Source: Candidatus Heimdallarchaeota archaeon
GTDB lineage: Archaea > Asgardarchaeota > Heimdallarchaeia > Heimdallarchaeales > Kariarchaeaceae
Direction of reading: 5' to 3'
Assembly: GCA_015522385.1 (NCBI GenBank)
Contig: WAMJ01000290.1
Location: 1-6,722 of the forward strand
Length of the DNA: 6,722 nt
Under the pieces are notes generated by a model. The model worked only from the letters and a program-made list of their open reading frames with translations, made no database searches and was not told the DNA's origin. The position numbers were made by a program, and so were the translations under genes. Shown here one piece after another: positions 1 to 6,722 of the stretch; positions within the stretch are counted from its first letter, which is position 1, and every line of letters starts with the position of its first letter.

Positions 1-559
1 TGACCATGATGACGAAGTCGGTGAGCGCCGGGCTGTAGACCGCGCCTCCGGCGCACGGTCCCATGATCACACTGATCTGGGGGATGACTCCCGAGGCCTT
101 GACATTTGCCCTGAAGATGTCACCGTATCCTGCAAGGGATGACACTCCCTCCTGGATGCGGGCGCCAGCGGAGTCATTCAGGCCGATGATAGGTGACCCG
201 GTCTTCATGGCCAAATCCATAACCTTCAGGATCTTCCGAGCGTGCATCTCTCCCAATGCTCCTCCGAATACCGTGAAGTCCTGTGCGAAGACACAGACAT
301 TCCTACCGTTGATTGTTCCATAACCGGTGACCACACCATCTCCCATGTACTTCTGCTTGTCTAGACCGAAGCTGTCCGTCCTATGGACGACAAACTTGTC
401 AATCTCTTGGAAGGAGTTGGGATCCAGTAGTTTCTCGATTCTCTCCCTCGCGGTCATCTTGCCCTTGGCTCTCTGGGCCTCTATACGCTTCTCACCGCCC
501 CCGAGCTCTGCGACTCTGTTCTTTTCAGCGAGGAGTTCAAACCGGTCTTCCTTGTTCAT
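1..559 (-). CDS. Acyl-CoA carboxylase carboxyltransferase subunit (PccB/MmdA type), N-terminal part
   Basis: This gene starts at an ATG at 559-557 and runs off the left edge with no stop, giving 186 codons of a family usually about 510-520 residues long. The protein transfers a carboxyl group between carboxybiotin and an acyl-CoA, typically propanoyl-CoA/methylmalonyl-CoA, in a cytosolic carboxylase or a membrane-coupled decarboxylase. Visible family features are the N-terminal basic helix with [17 protein letters not shown] (residues 34-50), [16 protein letters not shown] (71-86), [15 protein letters not shown] (93-107), [12 protein letters not shown] (128-139) and the oxyanion-hole stretch [16 protein letters not shown] (167-182). 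The match is colinear and unbroken. The sequence cannot separate propionyl-CoA carboxylase, a broad acyl-CoA carboxylase and methylmalonyl-CoA decarboxylase alpha, because the partner subunits lie outside the window. A small gene lies 40 nt upstream on the same strand, so co-transcription is plausible. An in-frame GTG directly precedes the ATG. Confidence 0.95.
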
Positions 560-599
560 CACATTGAGCTCTCATGGTGATTTGAAAAACAATTGTGTA

Positions 600-1073
600 C
601 TAACGTATTTCTTGGGAAAGGTGCATCTGGATCTCGCTGATCTCTAGGCTTTGATACTCTAAGTAGAGTTGCTTCTCCAAAGTCCAAGTGATTTGTTTGC
701 CTTTCTTCTTGTTCTTGCTGAGCAGTCCCCTCTCCGACATGCGGGTGAGGTACTGTGCAAGGTTGGACTTGCCGATCATCAGGTCGTAGTTGTCCTTGGC
801 GATGAACTGTGTCCAGTCTTTGTGGATATCTTGGGTGGTAAGTGTCATTCCCTGCGAGTACTGTGAGACGAGGAAGAAGGCGAACTTGTCGATCTTGCTC
901 CCGTTGATGAAGTCGTCCATGGTCTTCATCTCCACCTCGGGTTCATTGTCGTCTGCAGTGGTCGGTGTACCTGTCAACAGGCTCAGGAGGACGTCCTTGG
1001 GGATGGCAGCGATGGCTGACTTGTCGACTTCGACGATTGTGCCATCGGGTTTGGTTATCTTCAGACCTGCCAC
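600..1073 (-). CDS. Hypothetical protein with winged-helix-like domain
   Basis: A 157-residue soluble protein that I do not recognise as a named family. The GTG start at 1073-1071 is chosen because an AGGTGA ribosome binding site lies at 1083-1078 and a TATA box lies further upstream. Residues 1-20 form a short beta-rich opening (LKITKPDGTIVEVD). Residues 35-55 are acidic and probably disordered. Residues 58-140 look like a winged helix: a helix at KIDKFAFFLVSQY, a second at TTQDIHKDWTQF, a recognition-helix-like stretch at GKSNLAQYLTRMSERGLL and a basic wing (KNKKKGKQITWTL). That suggests a DNA-binding or protein-binding role, as inference only. It lies upstream of, and on the same strand as, the carboxyltransferase gene, with 40 nt between them and no convincing TATA box in the gap, so the two may form an operon. 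It could be a regulator of that operon or an unrelated protein. Confidence 0.75.
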   Translation of the reverse strand: MAGLKITKPDGTIVEVDKSAIAAIPKDVLLSLLTGTPTTADDNEPEVEMKTMDDFINGSKIDKFAFFLVSQYSQGMTLTTQDIHKDWTQFIAKDNYDLMIGKSNLAQYLTRMSERGLLSKNKKKGKQITWTLEKQLYLEYQSLEISEIQMHLSQEIR

Positions 1074-2151: not shown

Positions 2152-2937
2152 ATGGCAGAAAGAAAGGTACATCCGTACTTCATAGGTATGTTACTCTTCG
2201 CTCTCATCTCGGGGATCATCGACTTTGTATCAAACTCAATCAGTCTCAGCTTGATTGATACAAGCTCTCCCCAAGTTATCATCTTGTTAGTTAACGTTAC
2301 TGTACAGTTTACATTGCTTATTTTCGTCATTGTGGGTTTGGTCTACCTCAACAACCCAGAGAAGAGACGGATTATTGCGGAGAGTAGGTACAACCTCTTC
2401 CTCTATGAATTCTTCGAAAATGCCTACAACTGGCAGATTGGGCTTTTCCTCATTGGTTCAGTAATAATAGTAGCCGACTTTGACGGGTTCTTCACGGGAT
2501 CCATTGGTGGTTTTGTACTTATCGTCATTGTAGTCATGATCTACAATGAAAACAGGAAGATCAAGGAGTCACTGAGTATCATCATCCCGCAGTATCCGGT
2601 CATATCTTTGACCAAGCTGAAGGAGCTTATCCCACATCAATCAGATACTAGGAAGCTCAAGAGGCTCCTGTTGCAGATGATCATCGTCGAGGGCTTTCCC
2701 GCTCACTTCGATCCCAGCAGTGGTGTGGTCAGCTACGGAGATCATCCCAGTGTAAAGGTAGAACCGGTCATAATCACAAAATCTGATGTAGAACCTGTAC
2801 AAAAACAGGAGAAGCAAGCGATAAGCGCGTCCGGGGATATTCCGAAACTCATCTGCCCCTATTGCGGGGAGGAGGCAGAATTCAGTGATGCGAAGTTCTG
2901 CCAAGGCTGTGGCGCTTCACTTGGCCCCGCGAAGTAG
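2152..2937 (+). CDS. Membrane protein with winged-helix-like segment and C-terminal zinc ribbon
   Basis: A 261-residue protein of no named family that I recognise. Four hydrophobic segments lie at about residues 8-35, 41-66, 95-110 and 117-132. The rest should be cytoplasmic by the positive-inside rule (YNENRKIKES follows the last helix). Residues 150-196 (from SLTKLKELIP through LLQMIIVEGFPAHFDPSSGV) read like a small winged helix of the kind seen in PCI-like domains: helix, helix, a Met-Ile-x-x-Gly turn, then a beta wing. A linker of about 30 residues (200-230, Val/Glu/Lys/Gln-rich) leads to a rubredoxin-like zinc ribbon with C235-x2-C238-x11-C250-x2-C253. The ATG at 2152 is fixed by the TATA box 27 nt upstream. 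The stop is 10 nt before the next gene, so the two are surely co-transcribed. A role in membrane-linked sensing or protein interaction is inference. Confidence 0.85.
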   Translation: MAERKVHPYFIGMLLFALISGIIDFVSNSISLSLIDTSSPQVIILLVNVTVQFTLLIFVIVGLVYLNNPEKRRIIAESRYNLFLYEFFENAYNWQIGLFLIGSVIIVADFDGFFTGSIGGFVLIVIVVMIYNENRKIKESLSIIIPQYPVISLTKLKELIPHQSDTRKLKRLLLQMIIVEGFPAHFDPSSGVVSYGDHPSVKVEPVIITKSDVEPVQKQEKQAISASGDIPKLICPYCGEEAEFSDAKFCQGCGASLGPAK

Positions 2938-2947: not shown

Positions 2948-3958
2948 TTGAGTTTCTCAGAGAACCACCCGGAGCTTGTGGAGCTCTTGACATCGATCAG
3001 CCAGTTCGGCTTCACCAACCTGCAGGCCAGGGCTTACATCAGTCTGGTCTCACTGGGTGAGTCCACGGGATCGTCCATAGCCGAGAATTCGGGGATTAAC
3101 AGGTCGAAGATCTACGATACGCTCAAGGATCTTGAGAGAATGGGTGCCGTTCGACGGGTATCGAGGGAAAAGAAGACCAAGTACATTGCAGTACCTCCCG
3201 AGAAGGTGTTTAATTCAATCCTCCAGAATTTCAGTTCCAAGATAGCCGAAGGACAGGAAAAGCTGAAGGAGCTCAGTGAGTTCATGCAGTCAGTCGACGA
3301 GACCCGGGTGACGTACTCCTCCATTGAGGTACGTGAACTTGACGTCAATGACTTCGAGTACCTGATCACGGGAAACAAGCAGACCCTCGGCAAGCTGATC
3401 AACTCTCTCTCTCCACGTAACCGTCCGAACAATGAGGTGGTGATACTTCAGTTGTCGATCGAAGATGACATTGTTGTCCTCTTCTCGAGGGAGAGAATAC
3501 TGATCTTCCAACCACCAATAGGGAAAATCATCGAGAATCTCCTGTCCATTGAGAGTCCGGAGATTTCAAGGGTATTCTACAATATTCTACTGTCTAGCTG
3601 GAAGATGCCGGATTCACAGATTATCGAGATGGTGGAGACCACGGGGATCCGTCTCCTCTACTCGGGAGTCGCTGTCTATGTCGATCAACCCATGGAGACC
3701 TCGGGGCACTACGAGTACCAAAGACCAGTGTTCTTCATCGTGACGGATGCGCACATCGTCTTCTACTACGAGGGTGAGGAGGATCACAAAGTTCCAGTTC
3801 TCTCCATCTCACGGGTAGATCTTCTGTCCAGCAACACCTTGGAGTGTACTCTATCCGCAAAGACTGGTGCCTACCTCGGTAAGCTCCGGATGAAAATTAT
3901 TGGTCCTGCTCTCATGCTCAAAGGTATACTTGAAGTGGTCTCTCCCCAGATTAGATAA
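2948..3958 (+). CDS. TrmB-type HTH regulator with PH-like C-terminal domain
   Basis: A 336-residue protein. Residues 12-82 are a typical TrmB winged helix: FGFTNLQARAYISLVSLGES, then the recognition helix region NRSKIYDTLKDLERMGAVRR and a basic wing (KKTKYIAVPPEKV). TrmB proteins are archaeal repressors or activators, often of sugar and other metabolic genes. Residues 85-117 form an amphipathic, coiled-coil-like helix that probably dimerises. Residues 125-220 look like a diverged effector domain with alternating beta strands (EVVILQLS, DDIVVLFSRERILIFQPP). There is no sign of the usual sugar-binding domain. Residues 235-332 resemble a PH/GRAM-like fold: several strands, YQRPVFFIVTDAHIVFYY, then VPVLSISRVDLL and a final helix (ALMLKGILEVV). 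It starts with TTG, supported by the AGGTGAGG site and an upstream in-frame stop. It follows the membrane/zinc-ribbon gene by 10 nt and may act with it. Its stop abuts the stop of the convergent ubiquitin-like gene. Confidence 0.85.
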   Translation: MSFSENHPELVELLTSISQFGFTNLQARAYISLVSLGESTGSSIAENSGINRSKIYDTLKDLERMGAVRRVSREKKTKYIAVPPEKVFNSILQNFSSKIAEGQEKLKELSEFMQSVDETRVTYSSIEVRELDVNDFEYLITGNKQTLGKLINSLSPRNRPNNEVVILQLSIEDDIVVLFSRERILIFQPPIGKIIENLLSIESPEISRVFYNILLSSWKMPDSQIIEMVETTGIRLLYSGVAVYVDQPMETSGHYEYQRPVFFIVTDAHIVFYYEGEEDHKVPVLSISRVDLLSSNTLECTLSAKTGAYLGKLRMKIIGPALMLKGILEVVSPQIR

Positions 3959-3963
3959 TTATC
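3954..3963. repeat. Palindrome across two abutting convergent stop codons
   Basis: GATAATTATC is a perfect 10-base palindrome. It contains the TAA of the TrmB-like gene (3956-3958) and, directly adjacent, the TAA of the minus-strand ubiquitin-like gene (3961-3959). The genes have no bases between them, so both transcripts must end inside the other gene. Confidence 0.6.
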
Positions 3964-4231
3964 CCCCGTGGAGGATCGGAACGATCTTGATGATCATATC
4001 CTCCTCAATCTGCTCCTCCAGTAGTCCCATGGAAGAGAGTTCTGTCCCATTGTAGATGTAGAGTATTCCGGGTTTAAGCCTTTCACCTTCAAAAAGCACA
4101 TCCCTAATGAAGACATGATTTGAAACCGCCTGAAGTATGAGTGCCCTAAGTATTCCTTCTCCTTGGTGCTCGATTACTTCTGGATCTTCTGGATTGCGCA
4201 GAGATCTGTGGATCTTTAGGACCAGTTTCAC
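3959..4231 (-). CDS. Urm1/MoaD-like ubiquitin-fold protein ending in Gly-Gly
   Basis: A 90-residue protein (95 if the TTG at 4246 is used) with the beta-grasp pattern of the MoaD/ThiS/Urm1 sulfur carriers and archaeal SAMP modifiers. The second half is strikingly Urm1-like: KPGILYIYNGTELSSMG (residues 53-69), a Leu-x-x-Gln-Ile turn, then strand IKIVPILHGG (81-90) ending in Leu-His-Gly-Gly, the ending of eukaryotic Urm1. Such proteins are adenylated at the terminal Gly by an E1-like enzyme (UbaA/MoeB type), then carry sulfur for tRNA or molybdopterin thiolation or become conjugated to lysines. No E1 or cysteine desulfurase lies in the window. The GTG at 4231 is preferred because a TATA-like box is 25 nt upstream and no ribosome binding site is well placed for the TTG. 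The HxlR gene ends 32 nt upstream on the same strand, so it could also be read through from there. Ordinary MoaD is the main alternative. Confidence 0.8.
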   Translation of the reverse strand: MKLVLKIHRSLRNPEDPEVIEHQGEGILRALILQAVSNHVFIRDVLFEGERLKPGILYIYNGTELSSMGLLEEQIEEDMIIKIVPILHGG

Positions 4232-4250
4232 ATTTTGAACTCTCAACGTG

Positions 4251-4263: not shown

Positions 4264-4656
4264 TTACTTCAGGACAGTCTGGATGGTGACAGCATGTCTG
4301 CAGACTCCCATCAAACAGGTCTGGTTATCACAGTCTCCGTACTGTATGCTCCACTTCCTCAGGTCATCAAGAATAGGAATGAGGGCCCGTCCACTCTCTG
4401 AGAGCTTGTACCGCACCTTCTTTGGTGTCACCTCGTTGGGTATCTTGGTCACCACCCCCTCCTCCACAAGGAATTTCAATCGCATCGCCAGAACCTTGGT
4501 ACTGATGTCAGGGATGAGATTACGGAGATCGGTATAGTTAAGGGACTTACTCTTCGAGTTCATTGCATTAATTAGTTCAAGTAAGATAGGAATATTCCAT
4601 TTCTGACCTAAAATATCCATCACAAACCACATAGAACAGTCTTTTCGACGGGACAC
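4264..4656 (-). CDS. HxlR-family transcriptional regulator with C-terminal cysteine cluster
   Basis: A 130-residue winged-helix protein. It shows the HxlR pattern in order: an N-terminal cysteine (C7), DILGQKWNIPILLEL (residues 14-28), a helix with LNYTDLRNLIPDISTKVLAM (39-58), LKFLVEEGVVTKIPNEVTPKKVRYKLSESGRAL (60-92, the wing) and a final dimer helix ILDDLRKW. HxlR proteins bind DNA as dimers, and several sense thiol or electrophile stress through the N-terminal cysteine. Unusually, the tail holds C109-x4-C114-x4-C119 followed by His121, which could bind metal or an iron-sulfur cluster or form disulfides. The start is GTG at 4656, with a TATA-like box 26 nt upstream, so it is predicted leaderless. 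It is divergent from the DUF123 gene and 32 nt upstream of the Urm1-like gene on its own strand. Its targets are unknown; self and neighbour control are likely candidates. Confidence 0.88.
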   Translation of the reverse strand: MSRRKDCSMWFVMDILGQKWNIPILLELINAMNSKSKSLNYTDLRNLIPDISTKVLAMRLKFLVEEGVVTKIPNEVTPKKVRYKLSESGRALIPILDDLRKWSIQYGDCDNQTCLMGVCRHAVTIQTVLK

Positions 4657-4792: not shown

Positions 4793-5347
4793 ATGGAAAT
4801 ATATGATATCGGAGAATCCCATCAGAATGGAACTTACCTGTTGAGGATTAAATTAGAGACCCCTCATGACGTCGTATTTGGTAGGTTTGATGGTGGGCGG
4901 GTGATCCATGTAGCTTCAGGTGAGTACTTTTACATCGGATCTGCCTTGGCAAGACGTGGATCGACCACCTTGGGGAATCGACTACAACGTCATTGCTCTA
5001 AGACGCCGGATAGAGCTGCTCATAAGATACGGGAAACATTACTCGAGAGATTCGATAAGATTGGAATTAAGTACACCAAGAAACCTTCTCCTAAGAAATT
5101 ATTTTGGAATATTGACCATCTGCTTAATCTCCATGATGCTGAGATCATCGGGATCATATTTGCACGGAACCCTATTCCATTGGAGAACCCGTGGAGTGAG
5201 TTCCTCGAAAAGTCTGGGAGGACGAGTATCTTCGCCAAGGGTTTGGGGGCTAATGATTCCAAAGGGCACACCCATGTACAGAGTTTTGACAACCCCGATG
5301 ACGAGTGGTGGAGAGAACTCCCTGAGATACTTCCATGGATTGAGTGA
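4793..5347 (+). CDS. DUF123 family GIY-YIG-like protein
   Basis: A 184-residue protein of the archaeal DUF123 family, which is related to GIY-YIG nucleases. Family features in order are GTYLLRI (residues 13-19), the GRF turn (30-32), SGEYFYIGSALARRG (42-56), RLQRHCSK (63-70), FWNIDHLL (104-111) and a terminal KGLGANDSKGHTHV (149-162). The first two supply the paired tyrosine motifs, and Arg63/Arg66 or His67 are candidate active-site residues. Two features are unusual. About 35 residues (69-103, rich in Lys and Arg) are inserted between the RH motif and the WNIDHLL motif. The tail matches the family's Gly-Phe-Gly-x-Ser-Asp-Cys-x-Cys-x-Ser-His element but lacks both cysteines, which suggests loss of metal binding. 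A tail of about 20 residues with Trp-Trp and Trp-Ile-Glu follows. Nuclease or DNA-repair activity is family-level inference. The gene is divergent from the HxlR gene. Confidence 0.85.
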   Translation: MEIYDIGESHQNGTYLLRIKLETPHDVVFGRFDGGRVIHVASGEYFYIGSALARRGSTTLGNRLQRHCSKTPDRAAHKIRETLLERFDKIGIKYTKKPSPKKLFWNIDHLLNLHDAEIIGIIFARNPIPLENPWSEFLEKSGRTSIFAKGLGANDSKGHTHVQSFDNPDDEWWRELPEILPWIE

Positions 5348-5828: not shown

Positions 5829-6722
5829 ATGACTGATTCGCCAGTATATGAACCGCTAATTCAACCTCTGCTTAGCTTTCTACCGGATAATATGATCGTT
5901 CCGGTTGTTGTGTCTATCACCACTTTGCTTCTGGCATCGTGGATAATGATCCAACAGCTCTTCGGTCCGTGGGTAGAGAGAAAGATCATGGCAAGGATGC
6001 AGGGTAGGAGAGGCCCCAGCTACGTTGGCTGGAAGGGTATACTCCAAATCCCCGCTGACCTCCTGAAGCTCATCTTCAAGGAGGATGTCATGCCTAGGAG
6101 GGCTGATAGCCTAGGGTTTTTTGTCTCAATCGCTATAATCTCGATAACTTCAATAATTAGCTTCGGACCTCTCCCTTGGGGAACGAACCTAATCGGCGCT
6201 AACTTCGGTGTAGGAATCCTATACGTCTTCGCTATTTTCAGCCTCTTCCCCCCTGCAATGTTTATCGGTGGATGGAGCAGCAACTCGAAGTACGCACTTA
6301 TCGGTGGATTCAGATCTGCTGGTCAGCTACTGGCCTATGAGATCCCGATGTTCCTCTCCGGTATCGCGATCATCGCCGTCAACGGTTCCTTCTCCCTGAT
6401 GACTATCACGGAGAACCAGATGAAAGCTGGAGCAGGTTGGAACCTCTTCACACCTCAGCTCGGTTTCCTCGGTATTTTCACCGGGTTCGTCTTCTTCATC
6501 GCAGGAGTGGCAGAGTCCGAGAGGATACCATTCGATATCCCCGAGGCAGAAGCAGAGCTGGTCATGGGACCCAGAACGGAGTTCTCAGGCTGGAGATACG
6601 CACTGATCATGATGGTGGAGTACATTCACCTCACGGTGAACTCCCTGCTCTTCATCTACCTCTTCTTCGGCGGATACGACGCAATCCCATTCGTAGAGCT
6701 GGAGTTCGAGAGATGGTGGCCA
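5829..6722 (+). CDS. nuoH: NADH-quinone oxidoreductase subunit H-like (NuoH/FpoH), N-terminal 298 codons
   Basis: The gene is open to the right edge, so the last few dozen of about 330-350 residues are missing. NuoH (FpoH in archaeal F420H2 dehydrogenases) is the membrane subunit that contacts the quinone-reducing site and starts the proton path of complex I. Conserved landmarks are ERKIMARMQGRRGPSYVGW (residues 50-68), QIPADLLKLIFKED (73-86), SKYALIGGFRSAGQLLAYEI (153-172), AESERIPFDIPEAEAELV (228-245) and TEFSG (250-254). Several membrane helices lie between them, at about 23-45, 95-112, 125-146, 172-190, 208-228 and 258-283. The Glu-rich loop 228-245 is the quinone-binding/E-channel loop. 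It reads MGPRTEF where most family members have a Gly-Tyr-x-x-Glu arrangement. Its own TATA box means it heads an operon here. The Fpo or Nuo identity and electron donor cannot be told, because the partner genes lie beyond the edge. Confidence 0.95.
   Translation, partial: MTDSPVYEPLIQPLLSFLPDNMIVPVVVSITTLLLASWIMIQQLFGPWVERKIMARMQGRRGPSYVGWKGILQIPADLLKLIFKEDVMPRRADSLGFFVSIAIISITSIISFGPLPWGTNLIGANFGVGILYVFAIFSLFPPAMFIGGWSSNSKYALIGGFRSAGQLLAYEIPMFLSGIAIIAVNGSFSLMTITENQMKAGAGWNLFTPQLGFLGIFTGFVFFIAGVAESERIPFDIPEAEAELVMGPRTEFSGWRYALIMMVEYIHLTVNSLLFIYLFFGGYDAIPFVELEFERWWP

Follow-up and report, generated by a model that had tools for sequence, protein, structure and literature searches.

The locus considered here raises the question of what a small archaeal ubiquitin-fold protein with a eukaryote-like end is, and how close it stands to the eukaryotic protein Urm1. 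The DNA analysed, hereafter the window, is a stretch of 6,722 nucleotides (nt) of contig WAMJ01000290.1 from a Candidatus Heimdallarchaeota archaeon (assembly GCA_015522385.1), and the gene in question lies on its minus strand at positions 3959..4246. A first-pass annotation had read the product as an archaeal ubiquitin-fold protein with a eukaryote-like Urm1 ending, possibly with a dual role in sulfur transfer and protein modification and close to the ancestor of eukaryotic Urm1. Our analysis indicates that it genuinely belongs to a protein kind already known, and that the eukaryote-like end, although real, is widespread in its archaeal relatives. We consider it probable that the gene encodes an archaeal ubiquitin-like protein of Urm1/SAMP type with a beta-grasp fold, belonging to a subfamily of the Heimdallarchaeia and acting as an E1-activated sulfur carrier and/or modifier.

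Family assignment and spread

The plus-strand translation of 3959-4246 is interrupted by stops, and the Urm1-like frame is that of the minus strand. It is open from a TTG at 4246 (95 amino acids), and its best start is a GTG at 4231 (90 amino acids), which agrees with the N-termini of relatives. The C-terminal half reads KPGILYIYNGTELSSMGLLEEQIEEDMIIKIVPILHGG and the last residues are IKIVPILHGG; the codons for the terminal Leu-His-Gly-Gly and the TAA stop occupy 3959..3973 (minus strand), with zero residues beyond the di-glycine. The resemblance of this half to human Urm1, which had been proposed by eye, is borne out by the sequence, in which PGIL, the turn with Asn, Leu-x-x-Gln (as LEEQ) and LHGG are all present. 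The open reading frame (ORF) is not a product of chance, since it has a 77%-identical relative and a partly conserved gene order, and 8 of the 227 phylum genomes analysed contain matches of at least 63 bits to the family profile.

The proposed membership among archaeal ubiquitin-fold proteins holds, and the profile comparison of Urm1 with MoaD/ThiS came out on the side of the former. PF09138 (Urm1) scores 24.7 bits with the 95-residue and 24.9 bits with the 90-residue version, above the Pfam gathering cut-off of 21.8, whereas PF02597 (MoaD/ThiS) gives no match at E up to 1 or up to 0.1, respectively. The more specific NCBIfam models stay below their cut-offs: NF053661 (Urm1_like) reaches 30.2 of 70 bits and NF041918 (SAMP1) 15.5 of 60 bits. 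The best sequence matches in the PDB are mouse Urm1 (E 0.0017), yeast Urm1 (E 0.012) and Sulfolobus Urm1 (E 0.016, phmmer). Structure prediction gave the expected fold, since the AlphaFold2 model, built on 32 sequences, is a confident beta-grasp (predicted local distance difference test score 95) with a free, exposed C-terminal Gly-Gly and without a propeptide. The top Foldseek matches to this model are CysO, SAMP1 and Urm1 (E 1e-4 to 6e-4), and the structural Z scores are 11.1 for SAMP1, 10.9 for a MoaD-related protein, 9.7 for Chaetomium Urm1 and 9.0 for Sulfolobus Urm1. The structural search thus finds SAMP1/MoaD-type proteins and Urm1 alike, and the fold alone cannot separate Urm1 from SAMP/MoaD. 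In profile-profile comparisons (hhalign) the Heimdall family scores 41.2 against eukaryotic Urm1, compared with 31.9 for the MoaD/SAMP1 set and 84.8 for other Asgard proteins ending in His-Gly-Gly (HGG), the latter set (alignment A8) having been chosen by Urm1-type score; the Heimdall family itself scores 61.2 against these other Asgard HGG proteins and 57.6 against MoaD/SAMP, both above its 41.2 against eukaryotic Urm1.

A sequence search of 5.8 billion proteins returned nine proteins including that of the window, all of which end in K(I/V)VPILHGG, and a profile of 11 core members extended this to 62 database matches. The last three of these (P0180-P0182) differ in sequence and are MoaD-like; Pfam assigns them a MoaD/ThiS as well as an Urm1 domain, yet they share the VPILHGG end. 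The host is stated in the name of 8 of the 62, and is Heimdallarchaeota, Kariarchaeaceae or Kariarchaeum in every case; a protein name is carried by 12, of which 10 are called hypothetical. Among the 227 genomes of the phylum (Asgard), family profile A1 has matches at E up to 0.001 in 57. Those of at least 63 bits fall in the 8 core genomes (G001, G002, G003 and G036-G040), three of which are Heimdallarchaeota, and weaker matches in G009-G035 mostly have an SHGG end. A search of the genome contigs with the window protein sequence alone gave zero confirmed relatives. As a check on specificity, family profile A6 was run on 398 genomes of the phylum of G229, which we take to be Thermoproteota; only weak matches came out, in 51 genomes at E up to 0.001 and with a best score of 38.8 bits, a value not strictly comparable with the 63.7-150.7 bits that profile A1 gives for the core Asgard matches. 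A His-x-Ser motif after the first strand is invariant in the 11 core rows. Judged from sequence, this is a distinct Urm1/SAMP-type subfamily, so far seen in Heimdallarchaeia and little studied.

Possible function and its alternatives

A dual function as sulfur carrier and protein modifier, as initially suggested, is plausible. A ThiF-type E1 would adenylate the terminal glycine, and the adenylated C-terminus would then be turned into a thiocarboxylate. The activated protein could donate its sulfur, for example to the wobble uridine of transfer RNA (tRNA) via an NcsA-type enzyme, and/or might be attached to lysine residues of its targets in an E2-independent way, by analogy with Sulfolobus Urm1. 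Genes of the expected kinds, which the first-pass annotation had recommended looking for, are present in all 11 related genomes examined (the 8 core genomes and 3 of the SHGG set): each has ThiF-type E1 genes over the cut-off and TIGR00269 (NcsA/TtuA-type) genes. The latter family was used because PF16503, tried as an NcsA marker, gave no match over its cut-off. All 11 also carry separate PF02597 MoaD/ThiS carriers, and cofactor synthesis is therefore probably the job of these, which leaves tRNA thiolation and/or protein modification for the Urm1-like protein.

Several observations weigh against this assignment. The orthologues L009 (G003) and L007 (G002) remain under the Pfam Urm1 cut-off with 15.9 and 15.1 bits, and for 59 of the 62 matches, the window protein among them, the precomputed Pfam column of the protein database has no entry. 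In each of the 11 genomes the Urm1-like gene sits on a contig free of E1 and TIGR00269 matches, and no E1 or NcsA-type protein was found among the 10 window proteins scanned. TIGR00269 also matches 7 of 14 control genomes, bacteria included, and is thus not specific for NcsA. Visual inspection picked out one E1 type, E1-B, in 9 of the 11 related genomes, but the E1-B profile also picks up other E1 types and matches 209 of the 227 phylum genomes, so that the search for an exclusive partner was negative. Analogy casts doubt on the sulfur-carrier half, as Sulfolobus Urm1 is reported not to have supported tRNA thiolation in yeast, where Uba4 passed sulfur to it and it then became conjugated to Ahp1 (PMC12645042).

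The related genomes hold several E1 types, with L132, L133 and L134 of one type and L114, L116, L117, L120-L125 and L130 of another. One type has an ACTLVGxPR..HC motif, which resembles that of canonical eukaryotic E1s, and occurs alongside MoeB-like E1s. Two single ORFs, L108 (1093-2598, G034; 501 amino acids) and L110 (1096-2517, G036; 473 amino acids), combine ThiS-type, ThiF E1 and rhodanese domains, and in G001 and G037 a similar ubiquitin-like protein with an IAGGL end is encoded by a separate gene directly before an E1-rhodanese gene. In G034 a different small ubiquitin-like protein, with an ISGGRRP end (L186, 2408-2632), is encoded immediately next to an NcsA/TtuA-type gene, so the carrier for tRNA thiolation may be a different one in this genome.

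A protein modifier tied to the proteasome instead of a sulfur carrier is an alternative that we hold to be unlikely, though with some real chance. The PAC2 family includes proteasome-assembly chaperones, and in G036, G037, G039 and G040 the Urm1-like gene adjoins a PAC2-family gene (L088, L090, L093 and L095; assignment tested with Pfam in G039 and G036), near GatE and the small protein F1 described below. Fusions of Sulfolobus Urm1 are reported to have entered the 20S proteasome (PMC4569737). However, no PAC2 relative stands beside the gene in the window, G001, G002 or G003, and in G038 the contig ends at the gene; the four PAC2-linked genomes may simply have an ancestral gene order in common, and nothing shows conjugation in Heimdallarchaeia. 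In a bolder version the Heimdallarchaeia would replace the usual archaeal Urm1 by a modifier peculiar to their lineage, which has an E1 of its own and supplies the proteasome, as the PAC2 linkage might suggest, and which works apart from the MoaD/ThiS carriers and the eukaryote-like E1 system of the same cells; to this we assign a small chance.

An E1-activated carrier and/or modifier remains the preferred reading, and it has also to be set against an ordinary MoaD for molybdenum/tungsten cofactor synthesis. The latter is very improbable in view of the missing PF02597 match and the separate PF02597 proteins just mentioned, the position of the window protein outside the MoaD/SAMP cluster in both trees (see below), and the finding of no molybdenum cofactor gene among the annotated neighbours, many neighbours being without annotation.

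The His-Gly-Gly ending and eukaryotic Urm1

The ending was the starting point for the idea of a eukaryotic affinity, as most archaeal relatives had been thought to end in Pro-x-x-x-Gly-Gly. This contrast did not hold up for archaeal proteins picked by Urm1-type profiles, among which HGG dominates. In the comparison sets, whose choice by Urm1-type profile score favours HGG ends and closeness to Urm1, HGG occurs in 77 of 81 distinct small Asgard ORFs matching the two profiles (exactly terminal in 63, with a short tail in 14) and ends the protein at 30 of 31 Thermoproteota loci, the remaining locus (L199) being a failed pick. The other 4 Asgard ORFs group with MoaD/SAMP in tree 1, and the ThiS-type paralogues read from the related genomes end in GG without a preceding His. 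The C-terminus of Sulfolobus acidocaldarius Urm1 is H82-G83-G84 (PMC4569737) and in Saccharolobus islandicus Urm1 H81 precedes two glycines (PMC12625751). Given how the sets were chosen, the finding that HGG is usual extends to Urm1-type archaeal proteins and not to all MoaD/SAMP proteins; being common in the former, Leu-His-Gly-Gly is no marker of ancestry to eukaryotic Urm1, and the ending should not be taken as evidence for eukaryote affinity.

Profile scores point the same way. On a eukaryote-only Urm1 profile, built from three eukaryotic Urm1 chains, the window protein scores 22.1 bits and its core relatives between 6 and 21 bits. It is outscored by 37 Asgard rows (33 distinct sequences; up to 42.7 bits), only one of which (L025) belongs to its own wider clade, and by all 30 Thermoproteota proteins read (26.9-40.7 bits). 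Nearest to eukaryotic Urm1 among the Asgard proteins are L038 (G077) and L039 (G078), with 42.7 and 42.2 bits, in which the residues after HGG would need trimming; these two are better candidates than the window protein for the eukaryote question.

Two trees of about 100 columns each were made. Tree 1 has 87 rows and 100 columns; for tree 2 (82 rows) 22 near-duplicate or long rows were dropped by hand, 17 of the 31 Thermoproteota loci were added and long N-termini were cut. Their outcome is divided with respect to what had been expected, as the window protein does fall outside MoaD/SAMP but sits in a clade of its own, apart from eukaryotic Urm1. In tree 1 this clade has 27 rows (10 core rows and 17 SHGG, YHGG or THGG rows) and support of 100/98, with the eukaryotic Urm1, Sulfolobus Urm1 and MoaD/SAMP rows all outside it. 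In tree 2, whose bootstrap had not settled, the clade has support of 100/99 and forms with nine other Asgard rows a set (99/94) apart from the eukaryotes. Approximately unbiased (AU) tests on tree 1 did not reject a union of the 27-row clade with the 7 eukaryotic Urm1 rows (p 0.37) and gave p 0.087 for the 10 core rows with the same 7; the 27-row clade with Sulfolobus Urm1 gave p 0.525, at a likelihood slightly above that of the free tree, and the eukaryotes with Sulfolobus Urm1 p 0.378. Once Thermoproteota were included (tree 2), the direct union of the clade with the eukaryotes was rejected (p 0.008), whereas a union of the clade, the nine other Asgard rows and the eukaryotes was not (p 0.12).

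A reading of the window protein as a relic near the ancestor of eukaryotic Urm1, to which it would be the archaeal sister, would fit its Pfam Urm1 match, its best PDB sequence matches in mouse and yeast and the unions not rejected in tree 1 and, for the wider set, in tree 2, but is highly improbable, since the direct union fails with Thermoproteota in the tree, the eukaryotic profile is matched far better by other archaeal proteins and the eukaryotic DWEL and N-terminal VEFxGG signatures are lacking by eye in the alignments. With a general HGG end, a separate clade and mixed AU results, the proposed closeness to the eukaryotic ancestor is not sustained: as far as these sequences can tell, the deep branching order is poorly resolved and nothing favours the window protein as eukaryotic ancestor.

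Gene neighbourhood and known systems

Just upstream of the Urm1-like gene, on the same (minus) strand, lies a gene for an HxlR-type regulator (4264..4656), an identity that was confirmed by PF01638 (E 5e-21). The reported spacing of 32 nt is correct when counted from the GTG at 4231 to the HxlR stop at 4264, and is 17 nt from the TTG at 4246. BLAST at E up to 1e-4 found no relative of this HxlR in the other 13 loci compared. Its C-terminus is cysteine-rich (C-x4-C-x4-C), with a weak likeness to the RrpA/RrpB redox regulators (46 and 38 bits, far under the cut-offs). On the other side, a TrmB-like regulator (2948..3958, plus strand; PF01978, E 1e-19; family F5) is convergent with the Urm1-like gene, their stop codons (3956-3958 and 3959-3961) abutting; this family adjoins the Urm1-like gene in G003 and lies at a short distance from it in G001 and G002. 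The TrmB-like gene is preceded by that of a protein which has hydrophobic segments and ends in a zinc-ribbon-like part (2152..2937, plus strand; sub-cut-off matches; family F4), a neighbour in G001, G002 and G003. The small uncharacterised protein F1 (600..1073, minus strand; alignment A4, families F0/F1), winged-helix-like by eye in its C-terminal part, has its gene close to the Urm1-like one in every core genome but G001 (7 of 8). Its profile matches 72 of the 227 phylum genomes, strongest in those with the Urm1-like family, which is no clean test of co-occurrence. A partial acyl-CoA carboxyltransferase (2..562, minus strand; PF01039, E 9e-66; family F8) runs off the window and is a neighbour in G002 and G003. 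The carboxyltransferase, F1, the zinc-ribbon protein and the TrmB-like gene are thus common to the window, G002 and G003, and G001 shares the latter two. A QueC-like gene (family tested with Pfam in G003) directly follows the Urm1-like gene in G002 (46 nt downstream), is separated from it by one gene in G001 and lies about 2 kb away in G003. Further along the window, a DUF123 domain protein (4793-5347, plus strand; PF01986, E 1e-13) is back to back with the HxlR gene, and NuoH (5829-6722) shares 64-66% identity with its counterparts in three Heimdallarchaeota assemblies, against 37-39% for the matches that rank next, which identifies the window as heimdallarchaeal.

Among the matches listed in a literature search on ubiquitin-like proteins of Asgard archaea, Heimdallarchaeia or Kariarchaeaceae, as far as their text was accessible, there was no described Heimdall Urm1-like family. 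According to a 2024 review, URM1 in archaea is confined to Crenarchaeota (PMC11354881). This contrasts, as far as a Pfam match equals Urm1, with PF09138 being over its cut-off in 104 of the 227 Asgard genomes; the same holds for 255 of the 398 Thermoproteota genomes and, among 14 named control genomes, only for Sulfolobus acidocaldarius. A second Urm1/SAMP-type subfamily is hereby delimited, in an archaeal class often placed nearest the eukaryotes.

The Urm1 of Sulfolobus/Saccharolobus (PDB 4wwm), assigned to arCOG00540 (PMC2948915), resembles the window protein in its beta-grasp fold, similar length, His-Gly-Gly end, Pfam family and archaeal host. It differs by its weak sequence match, by a Trp in its N-G-K-D-W turn, where the Heimdall family has E-L, and by its position outside the Heimdall clade in both trees, although a union was not rejected in tree 1. 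Eukaryotic Urm1 has the fold, the PGIL segment and the Leu-His-Gly-Gly end in common with the window protein, which lacks VEFxGG and DWEL, stands apart in the trees and matches the eukaryotic profile more weakly than many archaeal proteins do. From SAMP1 of Haloferax and Methanosarcina (3po0, 2l52) it is set apart by its low NCBIfam SAMP1 score, and the SAMP/MoaD chains read mostly end in PPV(S/A)GG, unlike its LHGG. The other HGG-ending Urm1-type proteins of Asgard archaea and Thermoproteota agree with it in family (PF09138), ending and size, whereas the Heimdall subfamily is distinguished by the His-x-Ser after the first strand and by its own clade.
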